This document shows positions 993 through 42,800 of a stretch of 51,403 nt of DNA, in pieces (the stretch's first letter is position 1; every line of letters starts with the position of its first letter). Both the position numbers and the translations under genes were made by a program. The stretch covers positions 1-51,403 of IMG/VR virus record IMGVR_UViG_3300027971_000065; one strand, written 5' to 3'. This DNA comes from a virus. The notes under the pieces were generated by a model. The model was not told the origin of the DNA and did no database searches. It was given only the letters and a program-made list of their open reading frames with translations.

Positions 993-3900
993 TTAACCAG
1001 GTGCAACGCCGCCAGCTTGTGGTGCACCACCTGCTGATTGAACTGGGCCTACTACCTCAGGTGAAGCAGGTGTACCACCTGCGGCTTCTTCAGGTGGTGC
1101 TTCCTCTATATCTGCTGCTGTTTGCTCATCACCTTCCATGTCACCAATTGAAACACCAATATTACGTAAATCATTACCTTTTGGTGTTTCATCTTCTTCT
1201 TTATTATTTTCCTCACGCCACATTTTTTCGTTTCTATTAATTTCTTCTTCACTTAAGCCCAAGAATCTTTCTAAAGCAAAACGTTTTGAAATATATGGTA
1301 GCGCTTCCATTTGAGCAAAAACAGTAACTCTTGCAGTATCTAATTCACTTTGACGATAAGATGCAAAGTTTTGCGGAGGATTAAACTGTAAATTAAATAA
1401 ACCTGAATCAATGTTAAATCCGCGCCATCTTAAGAATAGTTTAAATTCTTGGTCTAGTTTCATTGCAATATAATTTTGCAATCTTTCGCAATATTGATTA
1501 AATCTATATTCTTGAATTAGAGCGGTACCAACACGACCGTCGCTCATTGGTCTATCACTGTCATCAGGACCAGTTGGTAAATATGAACTTGGAACACGTA
1601 GACCACGTGCTAATCTATTGTTAAAGTATTTTAAATCGTCAATTTCACCTAGATTTTGACCACCTTGTAATAAGTCAACCGAAGACCCTCTACCATCTGC
1701 GGTTACAGGAAAGAAGTAATCTTCGTTCATTGAATTCTTGACAAATATACCAGAATCTATGGCAAAAGTATGGAAATCATGCCATTTGTGCAATCCATCA
1801 ATAGTTATAGTACCGGTGTCTCTATTTGCAATTTTACGGATTTTAACTACACGATGATTAAAGTTATTAATTTCTTTTACAAATTGTTTCCAATTTTTAT
1901 AACCAAATTTAGTTAATAAACGATCCATTTTACTATAACCAAATTTGTCAAAGTTTATTTTACATTGGGCATTCTTATAGTCAAGCGGGATAGAATTTGC
2001 TTCTTTAACTAAACTCAATAACTTAGTGTCAGTATCACATTTGGTCAATGCTTCATTCTTAGTAAAACTGCCACTTTTTACAATTTCAGATACTCGTTGC
2101 AACATGTCAAAAGTTAAATTAACAGGTTGATTTTTAATCTTAACTCTGTATTCACAATTAGCTTTAGTTTGTGCTAAAGCCTTTGGATTCTCAGCAAGAT
2201 ATTTTTTTCTTGCCTTTCGCATATGTTCTTTATAATTAGCAGCAACTTGAACATCATTGGTTCGCATCCAAACAGCTTTTTGTTGAGCTTGGCGAATATT
2301 CCAAAGTCCAATTAATCTTTCTTCTTCGGTCAAGTTTTTCCAATTTTCTTTTAAAGTGTTAGAAATCTTAGAAGTTATCTGTTGACGATACTCGTCACTC
2401 ATTGTGATCCAAAAATCTTTCTTTTGTGCTGCATGATACAATATATGATCTTCTTTTTCCATATAAGTAAGATTTATAGGATCGTTATTAAATCTATTAG
2501 AATCTTTATGGTGAATCACAGTCCTAGGCTTCATTGCGTTTTCAGGTAGATAACTGAATTCTTGATGCTTGCCTAACTCTCTAAAAAACTCACCTACCAT
2601 TCTGTGAGTCCAAATCCATTTTTTACTCTCGTGATCAAAAACTTGTTGGTACTCGTTAGTCTTACCACCAGATATAGGAACATTTTTAGTGTTGAATGCT
2701 ATCAAGCTATCATTTTCAGTTAAATCCTTAGCTTCAACAAACCCTTTACCAAATACAGGAATTTTATGATCTGGTGTACAAACAAGAGTTTTTCCATTAT
2801 CAAAAGTTAATTCAATTACTTCGGTATTCTTTCTAGTAATACCTGCCCAATTAATAACACCAGGCACTACTTTACCTGTTTGTGGATCGCAACTATATGC
2901 CCAGTTCTCTTTACCTGCTTCAAATTCATTAATTATCTCTTGTAATTTTAATGTTCGTCCATCCAGTAAAGGTATCTTGGTTTCTAAATCCAAACAAAGA
3001 GGATTGTATGTAGCATCTACAATACTTTGCCCACCATACAAGCTAGGTATTCTACGTTGATGAATTTCATTTTTAATACGTTCAACAAAACTCATAGCCA
3101 TATGACTAGGCATATTACCAACGTCAATTTTAAATACTCTACGCTCAGGTGCTCGCTGTACACGATAGATTAGAACCGCATCTTCTAACAATTCTTTTTG
3201 TTTATAAACTTTAAAGACGTTTTCTAAGATAGATTGACCAAAAGGCCAAAAACGATCTAGACCTTCTGTTAAACTTAAATGTACTATGTGCTTAGCGTCA
3301 ATGGCTGATTCACTTTGCCCTAATGTAAATCTACTGCCAGTAGTATTGTAGGGCATTGCTGGCACTGTATATGGTGTGTTTGTGCCACCGCCTGTTCCAC
3401 CTAGACCAGTTGCTGGATTAGCAGCAAAGTCTGTATTAGTTTTTTGTGCCACTGAAAGATTTTGTAAATTAATGTTAATGTCTTTAAGAACATATTGTTC
3501 AGGTAATTTACCTTCACTTTCATTTACGATTACCTTAATAACCTTAACCATATCTACCCAATATAGTTTAAAGTTTTCAGGATCTCTTACAAATAGTTGA
3601 TCGCCGTATTTGATAGTATTGCGAAATATTTTAAAAACTCTAGTATCAAACTCATTTAATTTACACCATTGTTGTAATTGAGTTTTTAAAATATTAATTT
3701 CATGGGGAGTAGGATCGTCTTTAAATTCAAAGTTAAAAGGCGTTTTGTTGTGTTCGTTTTTCTGTGTACTAAACTCAGAGATAATATCTAAACATGCGTT
3801 AATTTCAGCATCAACGTCCATCATTTCATATTGATTATAGCGTTCTATACGATTTGGGTGGCCAGTGTAGACTTCAGGTAGTCTACTCATGTAGTTTTTA

Positions 3901-4043
3901 TAACCAAATTCAGTATTGTTCCAACCACCAGTCTCACTACCATTTTGACCTGGACTGCCATTCCAAGCGCCTGAGTTACTGTTTACACCGGAAATAGGGC
4001 TAGATATACCACTACGATTTAGAAATTTCTTTTTGTAAGTCAT
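993..4043 (-). CDS. 20: Portal vertex protein gp20, interrupted by an in-frame intein
   Basis: This encodes the head portal that anchors the packaging motor and tail. The 1016-residue product contains an intein at residues 350-770, so the spliced portal would be about 595 residues, against 524 in T4. Family hallmarks are visible: ELLEDAVLIYRVQRAPERRVF and DVGNMP before the insert (about residues 285-310), then MNEDYFFP, LLQGGQNLGEIDDLKYF and an ALRVPSSYLP-like segment after it. The C-terminal 80 residues are acidic then Pro/Gly/Ala-rich. Joining NPL to SMNEDYFFP restores the usual portal sequence, which supports precise splicing. The only Met compatible with the N-terminus is at 4043. It has no Shine-Dalgarno sequence and lies five bases from an ACTAAATAC element. 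The gene follows the tape-measure-like gene by 15 bases. Confidence 0.93.
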   Translation of the reverse strand: MTYKKKFLNRSGISSPISGVNSNSGAWNGSPGQNGSETGGWNNTEFGYKNYMSRLPEVYTGHPNRIERYNQYEMMDVDAEINACLDIISEFSTQKNEHNKTPFNFEFKDDPTPHEINILKTQLQQWCKLNEFDTRVFKIFRNTIKYGDQLFVRDPENFKLYWVDMVKVIKVIVNESEGKLPEQYVLKDININLQNLSVAQKTNTDFAANPATGLGGTGGGTNTPYTVPAMPYNTTGSRFTLGQSESAIDAKHIVHLSLTEGLDRFWPFGQSILENVFKVYKQKELLEDAVLIYRVQRAPERRVFKIDVGNMPSHMAMSFVERIKNEIHQRRIPSLYGGQSIVDATYNPLCLDLETKIPLLDGRTLKLQEIINEFEAGKENWAYSCDPQTGKVVPGVINWAGITRKNTEVIELTFDNGKTLVCTPDHKIPVFGKGFVEAKDLTENDSLIAFNTKNVPISGGKTNEYQQVFDHESKKWIWTHRMVGEFFRELGKHQEFSYLPENAMKPRTVIHHKDSNRFNNDPINLTYMEKEDHILYHAAQKKDFWITMSDEYRQQITSKISNTLKENWKNLTEEERLIGLWNIRQAQQKAVWMRTNDVQVAANYKEHMRKARKKYLAENPKALAQTKANCEYRVKIKNQPVNLTFDMLQRVSEIVKSGSFTKNEALTKCDTDTKLLSLVKEANSIPLDYKNAQCKINFDKFGYSKMDRLLTKFGYKNWKQFVKEINNFNHRVVKIRKIANRDTGTITIDGLHKWHDFHTFAIDSGIFVKNSMNEDYFFPVTADGRGSSVDLLQGGQNLGEIDDLKYFNNRLARGLRVPSSYLPTGPDDSDRPMSDGRVGTALIQEYRFNQYCERLQNYIAMKLDQEFKLFLRWRGFNIDSGLFNLQFNPPQNFASYRQSELDTARVTVFAQMEALPYISKRFALERFLGLSEEEINRNEKMWREENNKEEDETPKGNDLRNIGVSIGDMEGDEQTAADIEEAPPEEAAGGTPASPEVVGPVQSAGGAPQAGGVAPG
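1734..2996 (-). other. Intein with HNH homing endonuclease inside gp20 (421 residues)
   Basis: The insert starts at Cys350 (CLDLETKIPLLDG, intein block A). Block B is TPDHKIPVFGKG, with the conserved Thr and His. The insert ends in a block F-like segment (HDFHTFAIDSGIFVKN) directly followed by Ser as the +1 extein residue. Between the splicing blocks, around residues 507-540, is an HNH nuclease core (VIHHKDSNRFNNDPINL, then EDH and a further His). A Lys/Arg-rich region and a probable DNA-binding helical region follow, around residues 590-740. Codon frame is kept throughout (1263 bases). The penultimate residue is Lys rather than the usual His. The host position is a highly conserved portal segment, typical of homing sites. 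Confidence 0.9.
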
Positions 4044-6555: not shown

Positions 6556-7386
6556 ATGACTATAAACAATAACCCACTTAGACAGTATTTTCGCAGACCT
6601 GCGGTACATTTAAGACTGCCCAGCAAAGGTAAATATTACGCTGACCATGTAATAGACATGCCACCCACAGGTGAATTGCCAGTTTACCCAATGACTGCTA
6701 TAGATGAAATAACCGCAAAAACCCCCGATGCTCTGTTCAATGGCTCGGCTATTCCTGAGTTGATTAAAAGTTGCATACCTGATATCAAAGATCCATGGTC
6801 TATTAATAACGTTGACTTAGATGCTATATTAATTTCTATTAAAGCAGCCACTGGTAGCGGAGAAATGGACTTAGATACTATATGCCCCGCATGCGAAGAA
6901 GAAAGCAAATACGGTTTAAATTTAGTTGGAATGTTAACTCAGTTAAAAGACGTAGATTACGATGAAGAATTTATTATCAATGACTTGGGTATTAAATTTA
7001 GACCAGTTACATATAAAGAAATGAATTCAGCCAGTGTAAATCAATTTGAAATTCAAAAGGTCTTTAATTCAATAGAACAAATTACCGATGACCGTGAAAA
7101 GTCAGAAAAGATTAAAACATCCATTATGATGATTACTGAACTAACTATGCAATTATTAGCAAATGCCATTGAGTATATTAGTACGCCCACAGCCAGAGTA
7201 GAGGAAACTGAATATATCTTGGATTTTCTAAAAAATTGCGATAAAGAATCTTATAACAAGATTAAAGACCATCATGCAAAACTCAAAGAAAATACTAGTA
7301 TCAAGCCATTACAACTCACTTGTACTAGCTGTAGCCATAATTATGAACAACCCTTTACATTGAATACAGCCGATTTTTTCGGCTGA
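6556..7386 (+). CDS. 26: Baseplate hub assembly protein, gp26-like
   Basis: This 276-residue protein matches the T4 gp26-type baseplate protein family by its N-terminal segment (VHLRLPSKGKYY, DMPPTGELPVYPMTAIDE, then TPDALFNG) and by two Cys pairs. The pairs are CPAC (residues 110-113) and CTSC (residues 256-259), which probably form one zinc-binding site. T4 gp26 has 208 residues, so this form is somewhat longer. The family acts in assembly of the baseplate central hub. AAGGAA about eight bases upstream supports the ATG at 6556. The stop codon overlaps the next start (TGATG), so the two genes are translationally coupled, as expected for the T4 26-51 order. Confidence 0.75.
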   Translation: MTINNNPLRQYFRRPAVHLRLPSKGKYYADHVIDMPPTGELPVYPMTAIDEITAKTPDALFNGSAIPELIKSCIPDIKDPWSINNVDLDAILISIKAATGSGEMDLDTICPACEEESKYGLNLVGMLTQLKDVDYDEEFIINDLGIKFRPVTYKEMNSASVNQFEIQKVFNSIEQITDDREKSEKIKTSIMMITELTMQLLANAIEYISTPTARVEETEYILDFLKNCDKESYNKIKDHHAKLKENTSIKPLQLTCTSCSHNYEQPFTLNTADFFG

Positions 7387-7610
7387 TGCTTCTTCGCCTT
7401 GACCATGAGGGCGTTAAGAAGCTCATAGATAACTATGAAAAAGAATGTAAGGGTATTAAGAAAATGGCGTTAAGCCTATCATGGTATATGAGGGGAGGTG
7501 TGTCATATGAAGATGTTCTCAACATGTCCCCTCAAGAACGATTAGAGATAAAAGAAATTATTGACAGTAATATGGAAATAACCAAGAAAAGTCAACTCCC
7601 ATTTTTCTGA
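7386..7610 (+). CDS. Short gp51-like baseplate hub assembly protein
   Basis: This 74-residue protein has the pattern MALSLSWYMRGGVSYEDVL, a short acidic helix, then a TKKSQLPFF end. I recall this arrangement from small proteins encoded next to gp26 in cyanophage-type T4 relatives. In T4, gene 51, whose product catalyses hub assembly, directly follows gene 26. T4 gp51 is 249 residues, so if this is the counterpart it keeps only a short core. Translation is coupled to gp26 by a one-base overlap. A strong terminator begins 45 bases after the stop codon, closing this two-gene unit. The name is positional; the protein could be a different small hub factor. Confidence 0.6.
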   Translation: MLLRLDHEGVKKLIDNYEKECKGIKKMALSLSWYMRGGVSYEDVLNMSPQERLEIKEIIDSNMEITKKSQLPFF

Positions 7611-7654
7611 TTTTAGCCATAATTATTCATTTATCCAAGTGTTGTTCCATTAGA

Positions 7655-7704
7655 AGATGAGCTATCGCTCATCTAAGACCTCACTTCGTTCGGTCTTTAT
7701 TTTT
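7655..7704 (+). terminator. Double-hairpin intrinsic terminator after the gp26 operon
   Basis: Two adjacent hairpins are seen. The first is AGATGAGC-TATC-GCTCATCT at 7655-7674, a perfect 8-bp stem. The second is AAGACC...GGTCTT at 7675-7697, followed directly by TATTTTT. The second with its T-run is a standard plus-strand terminator. The first may help or may work on the opposite strand. Confidence 0.8.
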
Positions 7705-8147
7705 ACAATCTAATAGGGTTAAGAATTCTAATTTTATTTATTTTCTTAAGAGACTCATCTGCTGTCAGGAGACCATGGTAGTGCTGTTCAGCACCACCAA
7801 TGATTAAGGGAACCTGCTATGCCCATCATCCATTGTTGTCTATTCCCCGTATAATCAGCTATTTGAGCTACTATACGCTACCGGTTGCTCTGTAAAGTTT
7901 GCTGGGACTGTAGTGAAGATGATCTCTTGCAAGAGGTCTTCCGCAACGCATGTTCTATAACCCAAAGACAAAGTAGGCTATAGACTCATTCAGGGTTCGC
8001 ACACATAACGAGAGCCCTGTCGGTATTCCAAGACTAAAATACTAACCAATGGTTAATATAATAATCCTGCATACTCCAGATCTGTCGGCAACGAGCCTTA
8101 CCTCGGCTGACTCAAGGAGGATCGAGGTACCTCGATCAAACGTACTG
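7705..8147. ncRNA. Gene-free structured region, candidate noncoding RNA (strand unclear)
   Basis: No protein-coding frame beyond about 30 codons is apparent in these 440 bases, lying between convergent genes. By hand count 7801-8160 is about 45% G+C, higher than neighbouring genes, and it holds many inverted repeats. They are TGGTAGTGC/GCACCACCA (7776-7799), GAAGA-CTCTTG/CAAGAG-TCTTC (7915-7941), CAGGGT/GCCCTG (7991-8019), TAACC/GGTTA (8043-8055), AGCC/GGCT (8094-8108) and the palindrome GATCGAGGTACCTCGATC (8120-8137). The first stem is better on the minus strand (G-U instead of A-C) and the CAGGGT stem is better on the plus strand, so orientation is undecided. I looked for tRNA, tmRNA, hammerhead and group I intron core sequences and did not find a convincing match. 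Confidence 0.35.
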
Positions 8148-8717
8148 TTAAACTATAGGTATTGTGATTAAATTATCAGAAGATTGTTTTTGCGTTGACT
8201 TGGTGTCTGGTGTACTGGAATAAGCTTTAAGAAGGTCTTTGTTGTTTTTAAAAAAGTGATTGAATTCTATAATAAGCCAATCACCATAATTGCCTGAAGA
8301 ATAATATGTAAAATTATCTGTAACCCAAGTAAGACCGCATTGCACGGCCACGTATCTTCCCTTTCGGGTAAACTTCATGAATAGGATGTTTAAATCCCCA
8401 GCATCAGCAACCGACATGAGTTGATCTAGCCACGTATTTAGTTGCTTGCTTTCACCTGAAAGTACTAAGTGAAAAGGAAAATCAGCATAGTTCTTTGCTT
8501 CAGCATTAAACTTACTCCAAGAGTCAGGGGGAATAATATCTCCCTTAAACCCTTTGATTTGATTTTCACTTAGATTTTGCTTTCTATGTGAATTTGAGCC
8601 ACCAATAAAAGCACCTGAGTTGGGCACTCTTACAAAATGATCATCATAGAGGTCGCTGAGATATTTTGCAACATCTCTTTCCCATGATGAACCTTTTTGC
8701 TTTTGTGGACTAGACAT
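8148..8717 (-). CDS. PD-(D/E)XK family nuclease, possible Holliday-junction resolvase-like
   Basis: This 189-residue protein shows a probable PD-(D/E)XK nuclease core. An N-terminal helix carries Glu13 (GSSWERDVAKYLSDLY), a Gly/Ser-rich strand-turn follows, and then GD at residue 60 and EAK at 73-75 supply Asp60, Glu73 and Lys75. Small proteins with this arrangement include Holliday junction resolvases and other phage structure-specific nucleases. Position supports a role in recombination or genome processing: it is the last gene of the gp47-gp46 transcript, about 40 bases after gp46. The C-terminal 30 residues are Ser/Thr/Gln-rich and probably disordered. The substrate cannot be told from sequence. 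The gene ends at the edge of the structured gene-free region. Confidence 0.65.
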   Translation of the reverse strand: MSSPQKQKGSSWERDVAKYLSDLYDDHFVRVPNSGAFIGGSNSHRKQNLSENQIKGFKGDIIPPDSWSKFNAEAKNYADFPFHLVLSGESKQLNTWLDQLMSVADAGDLNILFMKFTRKGRYVAVQCGLTWVTDNFTYYSSGNYGDWLIIEFNHFFKNNKDLLKAYSSTPDTKSTQKQSSDNLITIPIV

Positions 8718-24803: not shown

Positions 24804-27800
24804 ATGGCCACAAAAATAAGAACTTTAGATTTTCTCCCAGAGATATTTCAAACTCCGACTAACGCTCAATTCTTAGCAGCAACATTAGACCAACTAGTTG
24901 CACAACCTTCTGTTGAAAGAATTCAGGGATATATTGGTACTAGAGTTGGATATGGAATTAATGCTAAAGATTATTATGTAACTGAACCAACAAAAGTTAG
25001 AACAGATTACCAACTTGATCCAGGTGTTGTGTTTAGAAAAACCGATCAAGATGTTGCACAAGATTTCATAAGCTATCCTGGAATATTAGATGCTCTTAAA
25101 TTAGAAGGTGGGATAACAAATAATAATAACCGACTTTTTAATAGCGAATTTTATTCTTGGGATTCATTTACTAATTTAGATACAAATGTTAACTTTCATC
25201 AGTATTACTGGTTGCCTGAAGGTCTTCCTCCAGTAGTAGTAACATCTGCTATTGCATATTCGTCAGAACAATATTATGTGATCGACGGCGCAAACTCTTA
25301 TGAAATTGCTACAGAACCTGCAGGAACTTCATTAGGAAACCCAACTTTAACTTTATTACGCGGCGGTACTTATACCTTTACTGTAGATCAACCAACTCAG
25401 TTTTGGATTCAGGGTCAACCGGGTATTACAGGTTATAGTATTACTCAACCAAATGTACAAACCAGAGATGTATTAGGAGTTGTTAACAACGGTGCTACTA
25501 CAGGTGTTGTGACTTTTACTGTGCCTGCTAAAAATGCACAAGACGAATATAATTTACCAGGTAATAATACTGTTAGTGTAGTAAGTATACTTCCTTTCTC
25601 TCAAGTAAATGGAAGTTATCTAAACACTCTAAATGATATTGATGGAGTAACTTCACTAAATGGATTAACTGTTATGTTTTACAATACAGGTGATCCAAAT
25701 GAAATGGCTTATGGTCAACTAGTAAGCGCACAATTTTTCACAATTACTTATATTGGATCTACTTCTAATCCACAATTACAACTTACGCCTGCTACCAGTA
25801 TTCCAACTAATCAAAAGATTACCGCGCAATATGGTACTGATTATTCAGGTAGACAGTTTTTTAGAAATACAGCAACGATTATTACATTAATACCTTACTT
25901 AAGTGCTGAGTTAGACACGCTTTATTATCAAGATGGTACTTCAAGCGATAAAGTAGGGATGATTAGACTTATTGACAGTAATACGACTGATACCATTAAT
26001 GTTGTGACTGAAATATTAGGTAAAACTACATATACTTCTTCCAATGGTGTTACGTTTACCAATGGATTAAAAGTACAATTTCAAGGTAATATCGTCCCTG
26101 AAGCATACACAGTTGAAGATTTTTATGTTGAAGGTGTAGGTACAGCAATAGAACTTATTCCTGTATCAAGTCTTATAGTTCCTGAATCATTTTCAACATC
26201 GGTCTATTTGCCATATGACTCTACCCCATGGGACATAGGTGGTTGGTCAGGTATACCTTATATACCCACAGATCCTGATTATATTACTATAGCTAGAAAT
26301 GCATTAAGCAAAAATGCTTGGTCTAGAAGCAATAGATGGTTTCATATTGATGTTATTAGAGCGACTGCTGAATACAACAATGATCCTACAATATTATTAT
26401 ATGCTTCTCAATATAATAAAGCTAAAAGACCTATCATTGAATTTTATCCAAACTTAAGATTATTTGATTCAGGTACTGAAGGCAAAGCTCCTCTCAATTT
26501 TATAGATTTTCGCACTACCGATCCTTTGCTATTAGTATCGGGCGAAGAGAATTATTACCCTGATGTTCAGGTATATACAGACTATACCGCTACAATTGCT
26601 ACAACTACATATACAAGTTCACGCACTGCCACATCTACTAATGGCACGACTGACGAAATTACATGCAGCAGTACTTCAGGATTTAGAGTTAACGATTTAG
26701 TAAGATTTACTATTAGCTCAGGAGCAGTGTTTGGTAATATTGTTGCGGGTGAATATTACTATGTTTCAGAAGTAGTTAGCAGTACTAAATTTACAATTTC
26801 AGAAACTAAAGGTGGAGGTGTATTTGACCTTTCTACTGGCACTGGAACAATGCAGTTTTATTGGACTCCACAAAGCACTGTAATAACTATCGATGGTGCT
26901 GACGTAACAGGTACTTTCAAAGTAGGTCAGTACATAACAGATTCAACAAATTTATTACCACCTGAAACACAAATATCTTCTGTTTCAGGGACAACTACTT
27001 TGACTTTAGAAGTAGTATGGGATACTATCTCATATAGTTTTTTTACAGGAACTACTACCGCATCTTTAATAGCTGTTCCCGATCCAGTTAATAACTATTC
27101 ATTATTCAATGGGGCTAGAGTAGTATTTGCAGCAGCAACTGATCCTGCTGTTAGAACAAAAATATATATTGCTAGATATTCTGTTATATCAGGGACAACA
27201 CCTGTTCTTACATTAAGCGAAGCACCAAATGGTGAGATTCTAGTCGGTGATCAAGCTGTTGTGATTAATGGTTACAATTATGCAGGAAAAAGTGTTTGGT
27301 ATGATGGTTTAGAATGGCTTCAAGCGCAACAAAAAAATACAGTAAATCAGCCACCTTTGTTTGATGTATTTGACGAAAATGGTATTAGCTTTGGTGATAA
27401 AGCAGTATATGTTGGAAGCTCGTTTATTGGTAGTAAATTATTTGCATATGGCATTGGAACAGGAACAAAAGATCAAGTTTTAGGTTTTCCAATTAGATAT
27501 AGCACAGTGGCTAATATCGGCGATATTAGTTTTGACGTATCTATTAATACCGATACTTTTGATTATGTAAGCAATTTTCAACCTATAACTCAAAATGTCA
27601 ATACTGGTTATGTTTATAACTATGAAACTAGAAGTCTTTATAATAGAGAATTAGGTTGGCAAACCGCTGTATCACCCAGTATTCAATATCAAGTATTTGA
27701 ATTTGATTATAATATAACAGATCCGCAAGTATTTTTTACATGTGATGTTGCAGTAAATAATACTTCTGCTACTAATTGGCCTGTTATCAAAGTTTTAATA

Positions 27801-30800
27801 AACAATGTACTATTGCCTAGCACCGATTATGAATATACTGTAAATAATAATTCTACAGTAGTTCATATATTAGTTGATATTCTAGTTGACACTGTTGTAC
27901 AAATATTATTGTTTAGTAATCAAGTAAGTACCACCGCATATTATAGCATTCCTATTAATTTAAGTAATAATCCACTTAATGCTAACTTGGAAATTGCTAA
28001 TGTAGGTGATATTAAAAATCAATATCAAACTATATTTTATAATAATCCAAACACAACCGGTCAAGTATTTGGATCAAACAATTACAGAGATTTGGGTAAT
28101 TTAGTTCCATGGGGCGACAGAATAATACAAAATAGTGCATCATTAGTATTACCTGGTGCATTCTTAAGAAAACCAAATCAAAATATATTCAATGCGTTAA
28201 TGTTTAATAGCAGAGAATATATTAAATTTAAAACTCTGTTAGTAGACACTGTTAATAATACAGACTATACACAAAGATTTAATCCATCTACTATATTAGA
28301 TGATGCATTAACTCAGATTAATCAAGTTAAGATTCAATCTCAGCCATTCTTTTGGAGTGACATGATTCCATCAAAGTCACCCTATATTATTAATAGTTAT
28401 ACATATACTACACCATCTATCGCCCCGACTTACCCATTAAGTCAAGTTTATAACTTCTCTACTGCTAATTATTCAGGTGTATTAGTTTATCTTTCTACTA
28501 CTATATCTAACGTAACTATAACCAAACAATTGGTTACTAATCAAGATTATATTATTAGTACCACTACCCCTTCACTAACAATTATATCTTCTTTACAAAA
28601 TGGTGCTGTAATTACAATTAAAGAATACAATCAAACATATGGTAGTTATATTCCAAATACTCCTACTAAATTGGGATTATATCCTGCATTTATTCCCGAA
28701 GTTGTATTAGATTCAGATTATGCTCAGCCCACATATTTTATTAAGGGCCATGATGGTTCATATAACAAGCTATATGGTACCTACAATACTAATTTAGGGG
28801 TATTAGTAGACTTCAGAGACCAAGCTTTACTTGAATTTGAACTTAGAGTTTACAACAACTTGAAATTAAGCACTAGTGTTCCTATATCGCAATACGACAT
28901 TATACCTGGATTTTTTAGAGAAACTGCATTTACTAATGGTGAAATTTTAGAAATCTATAGTAAAATGTTTTTGAATTGGGTCGGGCAAAATAGAATTGAT
29001 TATAAGAAGCAGTTATACAACAAAAACGATCAATTTACATTTAACTATTATCAAAGTGGAAACAAGATAAATCAAGAACCTATCTATCAGGGTTATTGGC
29101 GTGGTGTGTATCAGTGGTATTATGATACTACTACACCTAATTTAACTCCATGGCAGATGTTAGGATTCCAAGAGCAACCAAGTTGGTGGGAAACTAGATA
29201 TGGTCCAGCACCCTATACCAGTAATAACTTGATTCTTTGGAATGATTTAGCAGCGGGTATTGATTGGAATGATGGTAATCCAGTAGTATTAGAACAATTT
29301 GTAAGACCTCAATTATTACAAGTAATACCTGTTAATAGTGCAGGTGAGTTGTTATCTCCGTTTGACGCAATTGTTGGTAACTATACCGCTTCTACATTTC
29401 AACATGATTGGAAAGTTGGAGATGAGGGTCCTGCTGAATTAAGTTATCGCAGAAGCAGTTCTTGGCCCTTTGATTTAATGAGAATATATGCTCTAACCGA
29501 GCCTACACAATTCTTTAATTTATGTGCTGACCTAGACAATTATAAATTCAACACAGAGTTTAATCAATACTTAGTTAATAATCGTAGCCACTTAGTACCT
29601 GCAAACATTCAAGTTTATGGTACTGGTACGCCCAAAACAAGTTACATGAACTGGGTAGTTGATTATGAAAAACAATTAGGGGTAGATGCTACTCAAAATA
29701 TTATTGACTTATTAAACAATTTAGATGTTAGATTAGTTTATAGAGTAGCAGGGTTTACTGATAAGAATTTAATTAATTTTTATATAGAAAAAGCTACTCC
29801 TAATAGTACCAATGCTTCACTATTAATTCCTGATGCAAGTTATCAAGTTCTATTATATGATAATCAACCTTTTGATAGAATCATTTATAGTTCTGTTATT
29901 GTTCAGATAACAAGTGAAGGATATTTAGTATTTGGTAATTCTCAAACACAAGCATATTTTACTACTCTTAAACCAAAATTCACAGGAATAAATGAAGTAG
30001 TTAATGTAGAAACTCTAACGGTTAAACTTGCTACTGATTATTATGATGAAGAAGTAATAGTACCGTATGGCACATTATTCTATACTGTACAAGAAGTTGC
30101 TCAGTTTTTAACTAGTTATGGCGCATATTTACGTGCCCATGGTATGGTATTTGATGAGATTCAATCTGGTATAGAAGTTAGTTGGAATCAAATGGTATCT
30201 GAATTCCTTTATTGGGTTCAGTTAGGTTGGGAAAATGGTAGCTTAGAAACTATTAATCCAGCAGCTGGATATTTAAAAATTAATAGAGATGGATATATAG
30301 TACAACCTCTTACTATACGTCAAGAAAATTTCATTTTAAATCAGAATTTATATCCTATTCAAGCTACCGATTTAAATGTTCTTAGAGATGGTACTTTGTT
30401 CCTCGCTAGACCAGTTAATAATGGCGATTCACTAGCATATGGACAATTTAATATTGGTAATCTAGAGGACGGTATTGTCTTTAATAATGTTACTTTATTT
30501 GATGATGTTATATATGACTTAGTAACTGGTTCTAGACAACTTAGAATTTATGTTAGAGGTAGTAAAACCGCTGCTTGGGACGGTACTCTTACTGCATCAG
30601 GTTTTATTCTTAACCAAGACAATATATTGCAGTGGAACAAAGATATAACTTACACTAAAGGTTCTATTGTACTTTACAAGAATAAGTATTGGGTAGCATT
30701 AAGAATAGTTCAACCAAGTGCTACCTTCAATGAACAGAATTGGAGAAAGACTGAATATGATCAAATTCAAAAAGGATTATTGCCAAATTCTAGTACTAGA

Positions 30801-33800
30801 TCCTATGAAAGCACCCTATATTATGATAGCAACAAAGCTAATATAGAAGAAGATGCTGATTTATTAAGCTTTTCTTTAATTGGTTATCGTCCAAGAGATT
30901 ATCTAACAACAGTAGATTTAACTGAAATTACACAGATTAATGTCTATAAAAATTTAATTAAAAACAAAGGTACTCTAAACGCAGCTAGTGCATTTAAAGG
31001 TGCAACTCTACCACAGGGCGGAATAGATTATGACATTTATGAAAATTGGGCTATTAAAGCAGGCGAGTTTGGTGGAGTATTAAACACTAATTTTGTAGAA
31101 TTTAAGATTAGTGAAAGCTTAATGACTGGTAATCCAAGTATTGTTGCTCTTACTAACGGTGCCCCAACTGTAGGTGCCGAACAAGAAATTCCGTTATACT
31201 CGCTATTTAATTATGGTCGTTCAATCAATGATCCTGATATCCTAGCGGTTACTCCTATCAACCAACCATCTACTTTATATCCTGATGCAGGATATGTAAA
31301 TTATAATGACGTTAGAATGTCATCTTATTTTTATGCTAATTTACCAACTGCTGTAAATCAAAATGGTACGGTAATTCCTTTATCTGACTTCTATGTAAGA
31401 GAATATGTTTGGCTAGCAAGTTATTTAGGTACTTGGCAAGTGTATACTCCTGCATCAATTGGACCAATAACTCAAGCTTTAAATAATTTAAATGGTACGG
31501 TTACGATTACTTTTGCTAATCAACATAATTTATCACAATACAATATCTTTGCAATTATTAATCTTAATGCTGCTATTAATGGTTACTATATTGCAACTCA
31601 GATTGTTGATCCATTTAGAGTAATAATCAATCTAAATCTAGATCCTAACATCAGACTTGCTACAGGTTTGGGTGTGGGATTAAGTTTTCAAACTCAACGT
31701 GTTGCTACTCCTGCGGATATTAATAACTTAAACTTATTGAATGCAGAGTTCATTAAGAATACAGTATGGGTAGATACATATTCAACTGGTGATTGGGCAG
31801 TCTTAAGAAAGAGTATTAACTATCAATATGAACAAGAATTTAATAAATTAAATAGTTCAACTTATGGTAGTGCAGTTGCAACCGGTACAAAATTAGGTTA
31901 TTTAGTAGGAGATAGTGGAGTAGGAGAAGTATATAGATATACTTACAATGAAGTTTTACAAACTTATCAATTAGTACAGACTATTACTGGCAATAGATCA
32001 TTTGGTACTACTATTAGTCACGCGGGTGATTTATATGTAATATCAGAGCCAACTACTAATTATAGCTTTTCGGTAGATCCAACTTATTGGGCTTGGGATA
32101 TATCGGCAGAAGGTGGAACACATAGCTTTACAGTAACACCAAGTACTTGGACTTGGAATACATCAGTGGCAAGTGGACCAATTACTACGCCTACTTTAAC
32201 ACCTACTTTAACCTCTACTTTAACCTCTACTTTAACATCTACAACAAATTCTACGCCTGCAGTTTACCTATACATACTAGAAAATAATGTATTATCGGAT
32301 GACTTAATATTATATCAAAATCCAATTACCGGTCCGGCTAATACAACAAGTTGGGGAGCTGCTACTGCGATATCAGGTGATAAGAATTGGCTTTATATTT
32401 CCGACTATGACAATAATTCTGTATATGTTTACAGAAGAAACAATTTTTCAACACCAGCCGGATTCTTTATAGTAGGGAAAACTTATACTATTACTGACTT
32501 AGGCACTACAGATTTTACCCTAGTAGGTGCTACTAATAACATTGTAGGGTTATCTTTTATAGCAACTGGAGTTGGATCAGGTACTGGTTCAGCAACAAAT
32601 ACAACATATAGATATATAACAGTTATTGACGGTAACGAATTATCGTTGACTACTGTAGGAGATAACTTTGGTTATTCAATCTCTACCGATTATTATGGTC
32701 AAACAGTAACAATTGGCGCACCAAATCAAACAGTAAATTCAATTACCAATGCAGGCGCCGCTTATCTTTTTAGTAGGTCTGTTCAAAACGTAGAAGTGCA
32801 AGTAAATACCACTCCAGGTTTACCTCAAGTATTTAGATTGGGCTGGAACCACGTAACTGCTAGAACTGCTGTTTTTCAAACATCTAGTTCCAACAATACT
32901 ATTACATGCGCTGCTAGCACTAGGAGATTTAATGTTAATGATCCTGTTATATTCTACGGTACAGTTTACCCTAATAGTAATATATCATTTAACCAAATTT
33001 ACTATATTCATAGCATAGTAAATGATACTACATTTAGGATTAAAGTTAGCAAAGAACAACTTAATCCGTATCAATTGACTAATTCAAATGGTAATGGAAT
33101 GATTGCTAGTGTGCAAACTGTTCCTATTTACGTTTCCTTAAATGGGACTATAGTTGCTGATAATCAATATGGTATTGCAGGAAGCTCATTATATTATGTA
33201 GGTACATTAACAGCAGGTGACATTATTAATATTAGTGGAAATAAGTTTACTTACTTCCAACAATTAACCAATCCAAATAATTATACAATTGGTTCACAAT
33301 TTGGATTAGCCAGTGCTAATAATTTACAATCAACTGAAATTTTAGTAAGTGCTCCGTTTCAGATTAATAATCAAGTAGAAGAAGGTGGTATATTTAGATA
33401 TACCAATGGTGGTACTAGTTATGGTCAAATATTTGGTACGGCAATTTGCAATGTTACTGCAACTATTCCTATTTTATTAAATGGTTATTTGGTCCTAATA
33501 CCTGAAGGTAATGCTACGGTAGCAGCTAATGCAATTAATTCTAATAAAGTTACTAACATAACTGCTACTACTTCAGGTAGTAATAATGAATATTTGGTTA
33601 TCTCTCTAATTAATCAAGACTTGGCAATACCCAATGCAAGTCTTAGTCTTACTGTCTTTGATATTAATACTCTAACTGAATTAGGAATAACAGTTTATAC
33701 AAAAACACAAACTGTTAGTTGTCCGCATTTAGGTGAACGTAATCAGTTTGGTACTACTATCAAATTTAATGAGCAAAATTCTTTTGTAGCCAGTGCTCCG

Positions 33801-36800
33801 GTTGGTTCACGCTATAGCAGTACTACTTTTGATTTTACAGATGATGAAAACTTTACTAACGACACTGTATTTGATAATAATGCAACTCAGTGGGTAGATA
33901 TATTTGTCAATGCCGGTGCAGTATATATGTTTGACTACTTGTCAGTATATAATGAAAATATTAATAATACTGGCGACTATGTGCTTGCACAAAATGCCAA
34001 TGCTAGAAATATTGATTATGGTAAGCAACCATATTATGGAACGGCACTTGATTTTAATAATTATTCAGTAATAGTGGGAGCCCCTCTGTTCAGACCTGAT
34101 TATGTAAATGGACAAGTTGTCACTTTCTTAAATACGAGTGGAGAAAAAGATTGGTCTCTTTATAGAAGCTCCTCACCAATAGTTGACATAAATCGTATAC
34201 AAAATTCTCAATTGTTTAGCGCACTTACCAACGAAACGCTAATAAATTTAGACTACATTGATCCTCTTCAAGGTAAATTGCTTGGTGCTGTAAGTGAAAA
34301 TATAGATTATGTTTCTAACGTTGATCCGGCTAATTACAATAATCAAAACAATTTGAAATGGGGAGTTACCAACGTTGGGCAGTTATGGTTTGATACCAGC
34401 AATGTTAGATTTGTAAATTATCATCAAAATGATTTAGTTTATAATAGTCAATATTGGGGCACTGTGTTCCCTGGAAGTGACGTTGCAGTATATTCTTGGA
34501 TTTCAAGCATTGATTTACCTATAAATTACCAAGGACCAGGTACACCATATGATGTTACTTTATATTGTACTCAGTTTGATTTAAATGCCAATAATGTTCT
34601 AGCACCTGTGTATTTTTACTGGGTTAGAAACACAAATATAATATTCACTAAATTAGGTAATACACTATCAGATTCAATTATTGAAACGTATATTAGATCT
34701 CCTAAAAATTCAGGGATTAGTTATTTTGCACCTCTGTTACCAAACACATTTGGCTTATATAATTCCGGTGATTATATTAACGTTAATGACTCGGTATTTC
34801 ATATTGGATATTCAACTGGTACGAATGATGATGTTGGTCATACATCATATGATCTAATTAGAGCAGACTATGCTGATGACTTTTTATCTGGATTACCTCG
34901 ATATGGCGCTAACGTAGAGCCTCAATACTTATACAGAAGATTCTTAGCTAGTATGTCAGGTGTAGATGATTCAGGACAAGTTGTACCTGATCCATTCTTA
35001 CCAATAGCAGTTCGTTCAGGTGTTCAAGTAAGACCTAGGCAAAGCTTCTTCTTATTCAGATTATTAGCTGTAAAAAATTATTTGACTTATGCTAATGAAA
35101 TTTTAGCTCAGTTCCCTATTATAGAACTTAGCCCGCAAGCAACATTCTTGTATAAATCAGGTCCCTTCTACAATACAGCAGATTATTGGGAATATGTAAA
35201 TTGGTGGGCGACTGGATATGATAATAATACTAAAGCATCAGTTCAAGTGCCTTTGTATTCTGATTTATCTACCCTTTCTGTAGCATTTGGTACAATTGCT
35301 GAAGTAACTACAAATGGTAATGGTAATTCTGAAACTTACATTTATACGGTAGATGGCGTTTGGGTTAGAATTGGTTTGACTAATGGTACAATTGCATTTA
35401 AGTCATCTCTATGGGATTATGCAGGAGCTAATACTGGATTTGGTGGCAATTATTTTGATACAACTCCATATGATCAGTATCCGTCAACAGAAACTTATTA
35501 TATTCTTAGAGCATTAAACGAACAGATTTATATTGATGATTTTGCAATTTACAGAAACAAGAGTTTGATTCTTATATTTGAATACATTGTTGCGGAAACT
35601 TCCGAAACACAAAACTATCTACCTTGGCTTAATAAAACTTCATTGGTTGACGTAACTCATACTCTCAGAGAATTAAAGCCATATGAAGTGTTTAGTTCAG
35701 ATAATCAAGATTTCTTGTATGGTTATTTAAACGAAGTTAAGCCCTATCATGTAGTGTTTAAAGAATTCTTGTTCAAGTACACTAAGACAGAACCATACTT
35801 AATGAATGTCACTGACTTTGACTTACCTGCTCAATATGTTGCTAGTGACGCTCAATTTATTTCTCCTGAATTGGTTTATAGTAATCCAAGTAGTGATAGT
35901 CAATTCTTACCTGAGAATCCAATTTGGAATCAACAGGAATATACTCAGTGGTATCAGAATTATGGATTATCTATTACTGGTCATCCTGATTTCAATATCG
36001 CTACGTTGGAATCTTATATTTCAATTAATACAACTGAAATTGCAGTATCTAACATTAATGGATTCCCTGTAGCAGGTACAGTTAAAATAGGTACTGAGTT
36101 AATTTCTTATGAAACTGTAAATCGTGAAACATACACCTTAGGTGGATTGTCAAGAGGACTAAATGGTACTCCTATTAATAATCATTTACCTGGAGAATTA
36201 ATTTATACTGACTTACCACCGGTTCTAGTAGTTTATGGATCACATAGTTACACAGAACCACCTAGAGTCACTGCATATATTGATACTTCAATTTACCCAG
36301 CTCCTCGTGTACCTGCTGTATTTGCAGCGGTGATGAACGTAGACTCGGTGCTAGAAATTGAAGTAATCAATCCTGGCTCAGGGTATGCTGTACTACCAAC
36401 AATCGTAGTTGATCCCGCCGAAACATATACTTTTGGTAGTGGTTCAGTTAATGTTATCTTAAACACTATTACATTCGAGGCTCCAAACTTAGTTACTGGT
36501 GATCAAGTACAATATGAAGTTGGCGTAGCTACAACTGCAATTGGACCTTTAGTAGACGGGGAATGGTATTATGTGAATGTATTATCCAGTACACCAGTAA
36601 CTACTATTGCACTGTATACAAGCTATGATGATGCCATCAATGACAACTTTAGAATTAATTTTAATTCTACAGGTACTGGTTCTAGCCAATCTCTCAATTT
36701 AGGTGCTAGAGCATTTGCAATTACAAATTCAACACCTGTAAGAGAAAATATCATTACTATGCGTTTTGATAGAACTTCTTATGAACCTCAAGTAGTTGAG

Positions 36801-39800
36801 TGGTTGCCTGAGCAGTTCTATGGTGCTAGCTATGCTGGAAATTACAATCAGATTTCTAGTTCGGCTATTCAACTAGAAAGTACCAGTCCTCCAATAGGTT
36901 CAGTTCTTGCCAGTGGACAAGGAATTGGATTAGAAATAGACCAAGTTGAAAATCAAGTTATATATTCTTGGTCAGGATTCCCTCGTAGAGTAACAAACAC
37001 CTATTCAGGTTCTAACACTATTAGGCTTAATCCTTACGACGGCGGTGTTGGTGAACCTACAGCATCAGGTTCTACAATAGGTTTTTACGTAGGTATGCCA
37101 ATTAAAATTGATGGAGCATCAATTGGTGGCATTATTACTGATGTAACGTATTATGTCCAAAGCATTGTTAGTGACGTATTGTTTACTATTTCACAAACAG
37201 AATCAGGTTCGGTGTACCCGTTAACTACAGCAACCGCTGCTGCTGATACTGTTACACTCTACACTGCTCAGGTTATCAATCAAGCTATACTAACTGTTAA
37301 CTATCCAGGCATACTTGAAGTAACTTCTATTGAAGATTCAAATATTATAACAGTTCCTCTTAATCCTACTGGAACAGGCGGAACCAATGGTTTTTATGTT
37401 AATATGCCTATATTCTTTACTGGTGATGTATTTGGAAACATCATTGCCAATGAAGTATATTATGTCCATACAATTTGTAGCTCACAGACATTTACAATCT
37501 CTACACAAACAGATCCAGTTGTATATACCCTGGCTAATACTGTTGCAACAGGCAATCTAGTAACACTAACAAATCAAACTATGGATTTGGCTGTAAATGA
37601 TACTATAATCTTTACTAACTTTGTGTTTACTAGCGGGAACTTCATTGTTGGACAAACTTATACTATCGTTAGTCTTGGCACTACTGACTATACTTTAATT
37701 GGCGCCCCATTCAATGCAATAGGTATTACGTTTACTGCAACTGGAGTTGGTACTGGCACTGGTACAGCATCATCTACTGTGTTTGGTAACATTGTATCTG
37801 GTCAACTTTACTACGTGGCTGGTGTATCAGGAGCTAATAGCTTTAGTGTAAAAGAACAAATAAATTCATCAGTATTCACATTAATTAATTCTCAAGGTAC
37901 AGGCTTAGTTACTGCTCAGGCTGATGCGGTTGACTTGGCCGTTAGTACTGGTACAATGACTGTTAATTGTAACTTGCCAATAAGTCCGGGTCAGATAACT
38001 GGTCAACAGTTTTCAATGTATACAACGTCAGGTCAGTATCCAAATATAAGTGGATCTGTCAGTAATTTAATTACCAGAACATTACCTGCTACCCTTGCTG
38101 GTTCAAACAGAATACCAATGACATATACTAGTGGTGGAGCAACAAATATCTATGTAAATATGCCATTAAAATTTGCAAGAGCAATTGGTGGTTTAAGTGC
38201 AGGGCCTACAGTATATTACGTAAAAGAGGTTGGTACAACTACTTTCCCTGTAACAAATACTAACGCACCAAGCACTGTTGGCGTTGTAACAGGTTCCATA
38301 GCTGGTTATGTATTGACAGTAACCTCAGTAACCTCAGGACTAATAGTAAATGGGGCAACTATTACAGGAACAGGGGTCGTAGCAGGTACTACTATTATTT
38401 CACAACTATCAGGGTTACCTAATAGCACAGGAACTTATCAAGTAAGTTCTTCTCAAACAGTATCATCAACCTCAATCACCGCAACTATAAGTTACTTGAC
38501 TATTCCAAGCACATACTCAACTAATGTGTTGTATCCAGGCATGCCTGTTGTATTTGACGCATTAAGCATAGGTGGCGTAGATTTGAATACAGAGTATTTT
38601 GTATTGTCAATTATAAGTGCAACTCGATTTTCTATATCGCTTGCACCAGGTGGCGAGGCTGTTATTATGTCTACTGGTACAGGCAATTATATGCGTTGTA
38701 CCGGCCAAGATTATATAACAGTAAGTGCTACACAGGGTGGATCAGTAATACCGTTGATTGGTTCAACCACATCATCTAACTCATTCACCTTCACTCAGTA
38801 TCCTATACTATCCCCCGTATTTGATGTAAGTTGGATATTAGGTGGCTATAATGTTGTCATAACCAATCCAGGATTAGGTTATGCAGTATCTAATACTATC
38901 ACAATCCCCGGTACTCTAATTGGTGGAACTACTAATAACAACTTAACGATAACGGTTAACAAGCTTCAAGAATATGCTCCTAATCAAAGTTATGGGGCCG
39001 TAGCTGATGTTATTACTGCAGGTGTAGTGCCAACTCAGGCTACTAAGTATTTCTTAAAAGCGGTTGCTCCAAATCAATTAGCAGTTTACAGTAATTCTCA
39101 ATTAACTGTTCCTGTTAGTGGTATAAATTTTCCATATTATGGTACAACACAAACAACAGTAACGGGCACAATAGGTACATCTGTCTTTTCTGTAGATCCA
39201 ACTACTTGGACTTGGAATGTATTAGCACAAGGTGGAACATATAGCTTTACCGCAGCGCCAAGTAGTTGGACTTGGAATATATCAGCACCAAGTGGATCTG
39301 GGAAAGCTATATTTGGATTTGGTGTGGCCGGCAGTATTACCAACGTAACCAATCTAGTAAATGAGGCTGGTGTTGTGGCTATTGATACACTCAGTGTTGG
39401 TACTGCAAGATATGGACTAGCAGCAGCAGGATATGGCGGTGATAAAGCTATATTTGGATTTGGGTTGACTAGCTCTGCTGTTTCAATAACCAATCTAGTA
39501 TCTAACACCGGTGTTGTTGCTGCTGATCAAACTGCATTAACTGGTACTCCTAGATATTATCTAGCAGCAGCAGGATACGGGACTGATAAAGCTATATTTG
39601 GATTTGGTGCAACAGATATTGCTGCAATATCAATAACCAATCTAGTATCTAATACCGGTGTTGTTGCTGTTGACCAAACCGCATTAACTGGTACTGCAAG
39701 ACGAAATCTAGCAGCAGCAGGATACGGGACTGATAAAGCTATATTTGGATTTGGTTTTACTGGTACTATTGGCGGTGTGGTATCAACAACTAATCTAGTA

Positions 39801-42800
39801 AATAATCTTGGTGTTGTTGCTGCTGATCAAACCGCATTAACTGGTACTGCACGAGTTGGACTAGCAGCAGCAGGATATGGCGGTGATAAAGCTATATTTG
39901 GATTTGGGTTGACTAGCACTGCTGTTTCAATAACCAATCTAGTATCTAATACCGGTGTTGTTGCTACAGATACCATCGGAGTAGGTACTCCTAGATATTA
40001 TCTAGCAGCAGCAGGATATGGCGGTGATAAAGCTATATTTGGATTTGGCCAAGACGGTAGTCCTATTAACATAACCAATCTAGTATCTAATACCGGTGTT
40101 GTTGCTGCTGATCAAACTGCATTAACTGGTACTGCAAGAGTTAATTTAGCAGCAGCAGGATATGGTGGTGTGATCACACCACCCACAACGACTACAACAA
40201 CTGCGGCACCAACTACTACGACGACAACAGCAGCACCAAATCCAAGTAATATTATAGTTGTAACAAGTACTACTGGATTTAACTTAAACGATCCAGTAGT
40301 ATTTACAGGTAATGTAGGTGGAGGATTAATATTAGGTAAAGTATACTATATACTTACAGTAACACCTAATTTGACAGTAAGCTTAAAACCGGGTGATCCT
40401 TCAACTATAGTAACAGTATCAACAGCCCCATTTCTGAATTTTACAATGGCTAAGCTAGGTGATTTTGCGTTCTTGCCCGAGCCAATACCATTCAATCAAA
40501 GCATAGTTAAATTTAATAATCAAGTTTACGCTTGTGTAGTGAGTAATAATGATGCTGAATTTGTTTTAGGTAAGTGGGCATTACTTAATTCAGATGACCG
40601 TAGGTTAAATGCACTAGACAGAATCATAGGCTATTATGCTCCTACTGTTAATATGCCAGGAGCAATAACTAAGTTAGGGCAAACCTTATCATATGATATA
40701 ATCACATATGATAGCTATCCGTATAATGAATTTATGTCATTGAATATAGATTTGTCACAATTATTAACTGGGACAACTTATCCAAATAGCACTTACTTAG
40801 GTAATAATTTTAATCCTGATTTAGATTTTGTATTAGATACTGAATTAAGCAGCCCTTCATTTACTAGTACTGAATCAACAGTGTATGACGTAGAAGGAAC
40901 TCCGTTTACATATGGATATGCTCCTGAAGAATTAGTAGCAGGACTAGTCACAGATAATTTAACATTTGTGGCTTCAACTAGGCCAGGCGTAGATTGGCCT
41001 GTTACTGAATATCAAAATAATGGATTTAATGTATTAAGCGTAGAAATACCGCAAAGTTCTCCTACACAAACTGTATATAGTTTTGCTAATTTAGTTCAAG
41101 TTCCAGCCCAACTTAAAGTATTTGCAATAAACCCTACTACAATGGTAAGTGTATCTAAATATGTTGTTCAAGATTATACGGTTAATTGGGTTAATAGCAC
41201 CGTTACATTAAACAGTCCTCTATCATCAGGTAATATACTAAGAATTGATATATATGAAACTGGCAATGGATATCAATTAGATAGGTCTAACACTGTCTTT
41301 ACACCGTTACGTGACAATGACGTAACAGGGTTACAAGAAATATATTTAGATTCTAAATACGCAGGTACTATTAACGATGGTAATGGTCTAGTAGTTCCAT
41401 ACACCCAATCTCAAATGGTAGAAGTGATTGCTACCGAAAGTGATGTAAATCTTATATATTGTGCAGATGTTGCTCAATTTATTCTGAATAATCCTATCAT
41501 GTTCCAAGGGAATGTATTCGGTAATATACAAGCAAATACGACTTACTATGTAAAAACTATTAATTTAGCCACACTATCTATAACTGTTTCTTTATATTAT
41601 GATATAATTAATGGTGTTGCAGGGCCAGAATTTGTAGTATCAACTGCAACTGGATCAATGGAAGCAGTAATAAACGTGGGCTCTGATGAGCTTTATACTC
41701 CACCTTTAGTAATGGTAAATGGAAATGAACTAACGTTAGGAGCATATGGTCAAGTTACTCAACTTAATGGCGACCCCATATTAGCAGGTAACTTTATTGT
41801 TGGTAAAACTTATATTATTGTATCGGTTGGTACTACTAACTTTGTTGCATCAGGTGCTGCTTCTAATCTAGTTGGTATACCTTTCGTAGCAACTAATGCA
41901 GGGTCAGGTACTGGGACTGTAGCTAAGTATACTATAACTTGCAACAATACTGGTACATTAAATATTAATGATACTATATTATTTTCTAATGAAATATTTG
42001 GTTCAGTGATTCAACCATTGACAACATATTATGTTAAAACAATTTGGGATGCTAATGAGTTTACAATTGCCGCAACTCTCGGTGGAGCAGCTATTGTGTT
42101 AACTTCTGCTACTGGGTTAGCAACATTTGTTACTAATGAATATACAGTTGGTAGAGTTGATGATAGTAATCTAGCTAAACTAGTATTTGCTAACCAATAT
42201 GATACTGCTACAGATTATATTTCGTACACTGTGTTAGGAGAAACAGCTCCAACTCAGTATGGATACAGTATACCTGAAACTCAGTTGCTAACAGGAACTG
42301 GTTCTGCTTCTACTTTTAGTTTAACTAATTATGTTGGTGAAGATAATGTTACTAATGCAATTGTAGAAATCAATGGAATAAGACAGACTAGTAGTTCATA
42401 TACTATTAATCCTAGCACCAATCAGATTATATTTACTTCTTCTCCTACAGGAGGAAGTACAATTGCAGTTACCACATACAACTTAACAGATAATCAGTAT
42501 TTGCATACCCAATATGGTATTACAAACACTTCTACCAATGTAGTAACTGCTATTTCAAATATTAATAGAAATATTACTAATAGTATCTTTACTACTTCAA
42601 GTGCTACCCAAGCAGGGACTAATTATATAACGTGTTTATCTACTACAGGGTTTGCAATAGGTGCTACAGTTTTCTTTACAGGAACCGGTAGTTATGGTAA
42701 TCTTAGCGTATCAGGTGTCGTTTATTTTGTTGACGCTATAATAAGCCCAACTCAATTTACAATTAAAGATCAATTTGGGACAATTATATCATTAACTACT

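Follow-up and report, generated by a model that had tools for sequence, protein, structure and literature searches.

The question raised by this locus is what occupies the largest gap between genes in the window, by which we mean the whole stretch of DNA analysed (51,403 nucleotides, positions 1 to 51,403 of IMG/VR virus record IMGVR_UViG_3300027971_000065). An earlier note, made from the letters alone, had proposed a structured noncoding RNA at 7705-8147, with a decayed group I intron or a replication or packaging site as alternatives. Its starting point was sound: no ORF reaches 60 aa in the 537 nt from 7611 to 8147, which is the largest internal gap, and the raised G+C content was also confirmed (43% for 7705-8147 and 46% for 7756-8138 vs 36% for the whole window). 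The analyses below support the presence of an undescribed structured RNA, whose conserved span is narrower than had been proposed (about 7756-8138), although it lies within the proposed stretch.

Gene content around the gap

The gap is flanked by the convergent gp26 operon on the plus strand and a gene for a resolvase-like nuclease on the minus strand. The latter gene is preceded, in its minus-strand neighbourhood, by genes for a gp55-type sigma, gp47 and gp46. The features of the locus are as follows, with the RNA described below referred to as class A:

6556-7386, plus strand: gp26 baseplate hub gene (phrog_150), convergent with the RNA
7386-7610, plus strand: 74-aa ORF, convergent with the RNA, part of 6556..7610
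7655-7704, plus strand: terminator-like hairpins of the gp26 operon, seen by eye (AGATGAGC/GCTCATCT, then AAGACC/GGTCTT and a T-rich tail)
7756-8138, minus strand: conserved span of the structured ncRNA class A, from alignments A2/A3, covariation and strand asymmetry (about 350-400 nt, transcript ends not defined)
8139-8150, minus strand: site of an AT-rich box 5' of helix P1 (homologue consensus TAAAAATTnGTT), weak in the window
8148-8717, minus strand: resolvase-like nuclease gene (Holliday-junction resolvase; phrog_244, E 1e-21; PDDEXK_15; conserved synteny), directly upstream of the RNA on the same strand

The hairpins at about 7655-7704 were missing from a simple inverted-repeat scan, which was restricted to loops of 8 nt. 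The earlier note had the stretch begin right after the gp26 terminator, but the RNA is on the minus strand and its location is instead downstream of the resolvase gene. Helix P1 starts about 10 nt past the resolvase stop codon in the window. In most homologues the AT-rich box TAAAAATTnGTT is found just upstream of P1, where it might serve as a promoter or mark a processing site. A T4-type late promoter at this position was not supported, as the box before the RNA differs from the TAAATAC-type boxes, such as TATAAATAC, that precede several structural genes in the window. Boxes of the T4 late promoter type (TATAAATA, GATAAATACTCACAG) were noted at 21990, 24561 and 45497 (plus strand) and at about 46620, upstream of structural genes.

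ARAGORN found no tRNA or tmRNA in the window, tmRNA Rfam models were also negative there, and no tRNA gene was found in either the window or the 264-kb relative G003. At a site apart from the RNA, the G003 phage contig carries a genuine betaproteobacterial-type tmRNA gene (L347:1468-1860; RF01850, 112 bits; tag ANDELFALAA), which also matched the permuted tmRNA model RF04321 (129 bits).

Two other genes of the window deserve mention. The T4-like portal gene (993-4043, minus strand) is interrupted by an intein (residues 357-599 match PF14890, Intein_splicing), inside which HNH-like matches lie; the portal ORFs of most relatives are about 600 aa, and that of L161 is also long. The ORF at 24804-43586 (plus strand) encodes 6260 aa, of which the first 3000 residues had no Pfam family match. 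Similarly giant ORFs seem to be present in G003 and G004, and the apparent several-kb ORF gaps in those two contigs are probably artefacts of giant ORFs passing the slice edges.

Homologues, covariation and fold

Single-sequence folding of the region was only mildly unusual (z -1.2 for the plus strand and -2.45 for the minus strand), and therefore a structure could not be proven from the window alone and comparison was needed. A first set of 42 loci was obtained by an IMG/VR search with the resolvase, and in about half of these the gap found a match at the DNA level, invariably on the strand of the resolvase. The motif TTTACAGNNYAACCGGTRG, derived from the alignment, was then scanned over IMG/VR and returned at least 120 stretches; all 120 of those listed were homologues, aligning over at least 230 nt to known copies. 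Among the matches listed, the resolvase was just upstream on the same strand in 101 of the 102 loci whose upstream sequence was long enough, and gp26 was downstream and convergent in 109 loci. Some homologues are from giant phages, with contigs of up to 524 kb, and each of six contigs tested (155-524 kb) had one convincing copy of the RNA.

RNAalifold of 14 sequences predicted 65 pairs, of which 24 had compensatory changes, and the same helices reappeared with 80 non-redundant sequences. They were also recovered by an APC-corrected G-test across all column pairs, for which no structure was assumed, together with two extra sets of pairs: PK1, joining the loop of P5 to a downstream strand, and PK2, joining the bulge of P6 to GGGA. 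Across 63 diverse sequences the resulting 75-pair structure, including both pseudoknots, had 95.7% of cells paired, with two-sided changes at 55 of 75 pairs (748 cells). None of 500 shuffles reached these covariation values. When the partner was slid by 1-3 columns pairing fell to 30-41%; since the structure was derived from related sequences, the true register is somewhat favoured over the slid versions, but not by the margin seen. The elements of the fold, given in the 5' to 3' order of the RNA, are:

8120-8137, minus strand: helix P1, 5' hairpin GATCGAG/CTCGATC (a hairpin of at least 5 bp, of changing sequence, in 97 of 101 homologues; poorly aligned)
8074-8119, minus strand: helix P2 (8116-8119 with 8074-8077, CUCC/GGAG; covariation), enclosing hairpin P2a (about 8088-8107)
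8029-8069, minus strand: hairpin P2b (two-sided changes at 6/6 pairs; sequence variable, pairing kept)
7879-8025, minus strand: helix P3 (8021-8025 with 7879-7883; covariation), closing the multi-branched core
7991-8019, minus strand: helix P4/P4b (8015-8019 with 7991-7995; 8009-8011 with 7997-7999; covariation)
7950-7989, minus strand: helix P5 (7976-7989 with 7950-7961; 11 pairs, 10 two-sided)
7884-7947, minus strand: helix P6 (7942-7947 with 7884-7889; covariation), with a large conserved 3' bulge ACUACAG..UUUACAG (invariant columns)
7836-7971, minus strand: pseudoknot PK1, P5 loop 7966-7971 (UUGUCU) with 7836-7841 (AGACAA), 97.6% paired
7844-7907, minus strand: pseudoknot PK2, P6 bulge 7904-7907 (UCCC) with 7844-7847 (GGGA), 97.4% paired
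7849-7876, minus strand: helix P7 (7867-7876 with 7849-7859; two-sided changes at 10/10 pairs)
7777-7798, minus strand: helix P8, 3' hairpin GGUGGUGCUG/CAGCACUACC (sequence nearly invariant)

The fold shown by these alignments has three parts: a variable 5' domain (P1, P2, P2a and P2b), a compact core in which the two pseudoknots hold P3-P7 together, and P8, the invariant hairpin at the 3' end. The two repeats singled out in the earlier note, a stem-loop at 7776-7799 and an 18-base palindrome at 8120-8137, both exist and correspond to P8 and P1, respectively. Many of the 15 inverted-repeat pairs found by the scan are attributable to chance.

In the alignment, G-U outnumbered A-C (200 vs 43 cells), an asymmetry that places the RNA on the minus strand of the window. 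The region is not coding: none of the frames stays open throughout the set, and the median longest open stretch was 36-47 codons in every frame, although a quarter of the sequences had more than 80 open codons in some frame. The near-perfect palindromes P1 and P8 might suggest a packaging or recombination site acting at the DNA level and merely resembling RNA. We consider the chance of this to be close to negligible, as long-range compensatory pairs and pseudoknots are expected of RNA rather than DNA and the fivefold excess of G-U over A-C cells is an RNA-type pattern. The earlier alternative of a replication or packaging site, if a pure DNA site is meant, likewise leaves the compensatory pairs and the asymmetry unexplained.

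The covariance-model search that had been advised returned no Rfam match in 7600-8250 even at E<=10, including the models of GOLLD, ROOL, OLE and the intron and ribozyme families. A ribozyme or a decayed group I/II intron would be compatible with the size and the pseudoknotted core of the RNA, and tmRNA and group I/II introns do have pseudoknotted folds of similar size. Yet none of their models matched in the window, the RNA has a conserved position between genes and not inside one, and the strong purifying selection on pairing argues against decay. We therefore regard this explanation as very improbable, and the idea of a decayed group I intron is not upheld.

Two resemblances to ribosomal RNA were also considered. 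The conserved CCUCCUU in P2 could be read as an anti-Shine-Dalgarno sequence; this was rejected because, by inspection, P2 alters to CCCA/UGGG in locus L025 and to UGCC/GGCA in L027. A mimic of the 16S helix 23 region that acts on the ribosome was raised by GATCTGGAG (37/63 sequences) and GGAATACCG (27/63), which are neighbours in E. coli 16S at 705-721. However, with shuffled 16S the best shared 9-mers were about as frequent in 6-10% of trials, and the GGAG part is the strand of P2 that is altered in those same two loci. Being marginal relative to shuffles and not conserved across the classes described below, 16S mimicry was set aside, and we give it hardly any weight. Complementarity of the RNA to 16S or 23S rRNA was not above shuffle frequency.

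Distribution and relation to Polynucleobacter-1

Scanning the motif TTTACAGNNYAACCGGTRG over 84,980 GTDB species gave 45 hits without a true copy, the matches being short and mostly around the motif itself. The class A model detected nothing convincing in phages PA5oct, SCTP-2, Phosso and F336 and no copy in 401 genomes of one bacterial family, an empty answer that proves little by itself. When the RNAs of classes A, B and C were used as blastn queries, no homologue was found in isolated phages; one match, of 53 nt in Salicola phage SCTP-2 (E 4e-3), is inside an annotated gene. Class A is apparently restricted to phages. In three loci (L146, L160, L091) a GIY-YIG/homing-endonuclease-like ORF, and in two others (L127, L135) an unrelated ORF of about 247 aa, is inserted exactly beside the RNA, in the interval between the RNA and gp26 (identities by eye).

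Four of the first loci (L023, L025, L026 and L027) had a diverged RNA at the same place. The motif derived from them, GTACAGGCYAACCGCC, is shorter and less specific; 89 of the 120 IMG/VR stretches listed for it passed a loose similarity filter and the rest look like chance matches. The passing stretches split into class B, which is few and diverse, and class C, which is many. The order P4-P5-P6-P8 is common to the folds of these two classes, and a model made from class C only picked out class B where it should lie (L023, E 1.6e-6; L024, 4e-4; L278, 7e-4), while decoys scored E 2-3.

Detection failed in both directions between class A and the others: the core model of class A missed B and C, and the class C model missed class A. 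The link of class A to the others therefore rests on a bridging sequence, a shared locus and PK1. The bridge is L025, which matches class A in its 5' part (84% identity over 43 nt) and looks like class B in its core. Most members of all three classes have the arrangement gp46, RNA and convergent gp26. Most of the class B and C sequences tested have PK1 at a distance that hardly varies, with wholly different letters (e.g., CUGAUAU/AUAUCAG, UAUGGUUG/CAACCAUA, UUAGCAA/UUGCUAA and UUAGYGU/ACRCUAA), although it was not significant singly in L026, L027, L281 and L283. On these three grounds class A is related to the broader classes B and C.

An orphan RNA motif in Rfam does match class C. Polynucleobacter-1 (RF01718) matched the 5' 133-150 nt of class C with 83-115 bits, relative to a gathering score of 37, and the match ended about 100 nt before a shared GTACAGG motif. 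RF01718 was positive in 7 of 10 sources tested, with scores of 90-113 bits and the three negatives being class B, and in 6 of 8 records tested by family. No RF01718 match was found in the window RNA (7600-8250, E<=10) or in the class B loci tested; the window RNA shares the architecture of the RF01718-bearing RNA in having PK1 and, in most, the same locus. Polynucleobacter-1 appears in Weinberg et al. 2010 (PMC2864571) as a probably cis-regulatory motif of Burkholderiales and fresh water and not as a piece of a phage RNA, and the accession RF01718 was cited by no other paper in the literature searched. The 141-nt Rfam model excludes the core, the pseudoknots and P8 of the larger RNA. It thus appears, from these matches, that the Polynucleobacter-1 motif is one end, the 5' domain, of a larger phage RNA in class C.

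RF01718 was detected once in the 401 genomes of one bacterial family, in a 4.8-kb contig of a bacterial assembly (L394:1306-1443), where by inspection it is followed by the motif AACCGCCC and a P8-like hairpin. This contig may be a phage contig in a bacterial bin. The betaproteobacterial-type tmRNA of G003 hints that the hosts are betaproteobacteria, which would fit the habitat of Polynucleobacter-1.

Possible role of the RNA

Homologues occupy the same site in over 100 phage contigs, compensatory change is massive and Rfam has no match; the homologue search and covariation analysis that the earlier note recommended thus bear out its suggestion of an undescribed phage RNA. Of the refuting conditions it had set, a lack of homologues, a lack of covariation and a match to an intron or a decayed gene did not apply. 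The RNA has the properties of a large structured phage ncRNA (conserved, intergenic, noncoding and with compensatory changes across phages). RNAs of this kind, with no function assigned, are already known, and it is the family itself that is new, being absent from Rfam 15 and not found in the literature searched. GOLLD is likewise a large, ornate phage RNA of unknown function, often longer than 800 nt and often near tRNA islands (PMC12286853), whereas the window has no tRNA gene. ROOL is also a large phage RNA with several pseudoknots, for which neither a function nor a protein partner has been identified (PMC12286853), and it differs from the window RNA in its locus.

We propose that the locus is a gene for a stable structural ncRNA on the minus strand after the resolvase, acting in trans in a manner like GOLLD and ROOL. 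We assign this reading a probability of roughly 0.65; there are no expression, partner, oligomer or catalysis data. An RNA of about 350-400 nt would be read from the minus strand after the resolvase gene, either from its own promoter or cut from the resolvase-operon transcript, and would work in trans in the infected cell, as a scaffold on which a ribonucleoprotein or an RNA complex is assembled. When a fold covaries, those of its elements that keep their sequence are usually binding sites; here P8 and the unpaired ACUACAG and UUUACAG segments are invariant, and they might hold protein or RNA partners. The scaffold inference is based on these elements and on the analogy with GOLLD and ROOL.

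The most serious rival is that the RNA is not free but acts in cis, as a 3' untranslated structure that belongs to the gp46/47-resolvase operon and protects the mRNA end or regulates the resolvase. With few exceptions the RNA comes right after the resolvase gene, on its strand, and the two are likely, or at least could be, co-transcribed in most members of class A. The gap of about 10 nt between the resolvase stop codon and P1 in the window leaves little room for a promoter, and thus a 3'-UTR role stays possible. However, the RNA is far more elaborate than such a role would need. In L163 the RNA is intact, and some 200-900 bases upstream of its motif an unrelated small ORF replaces the resolvase; many class C loci have gp46, 0.9-2 kb away, as the first upstream gene that was recognised; and in L280, L321 and L334 (class B) the flanking genes are rearranged so that the resolvase is after the RNA instead of before it. 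These loci favour an element of its own, and we consider the cis-acting explanation unlikely, without dismissing it.

A structured primer transcribed at a replication origin, like ColE1 RNA II or the T4 origin R-loop RNA, was also considered, as the neighbours of the RNA are recombination genes and the cumulative GC-skew minimum is 4-6 kb from the RNA in G003 (L343) and G004 (L359). That minimum coincides with the main gene-strand switch and is therefore confounded by gene orientation, and the signal was not seen in G002. The assignment of an origin from GC skew was rejected for these reasons, and an origin transcript seems improbable.

More broadly, the proposed ncRNA could belong to an unrecognised superfamily with a pseudoknotted core, conserved as a single copy in a large clade of T4-like phages (contigs to 524 kb) and carrying exchangeable 5' domains that include Polynucleobacter-1, which would perform a core infection step that no known phage RNA performs. 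This idea is tentative, and we would put its chances somewhat below even.

To our knowledge, phages have yielded very few structured RNAs this large. The family described here comprises hundreds of natural variants with a covariation-defined fold containing two pseudoknots, present in one copy per contig where tested, and its alignment provides a basis for new Rfam families, probing and cryo-EM. Polynucleobacter-1, unexplained since 2010, gains a context as what appears to be the 5' end of a larger phage RNA. The fixed position of the RNA among core replication and tail genes suggests that it has a basic role in infection.
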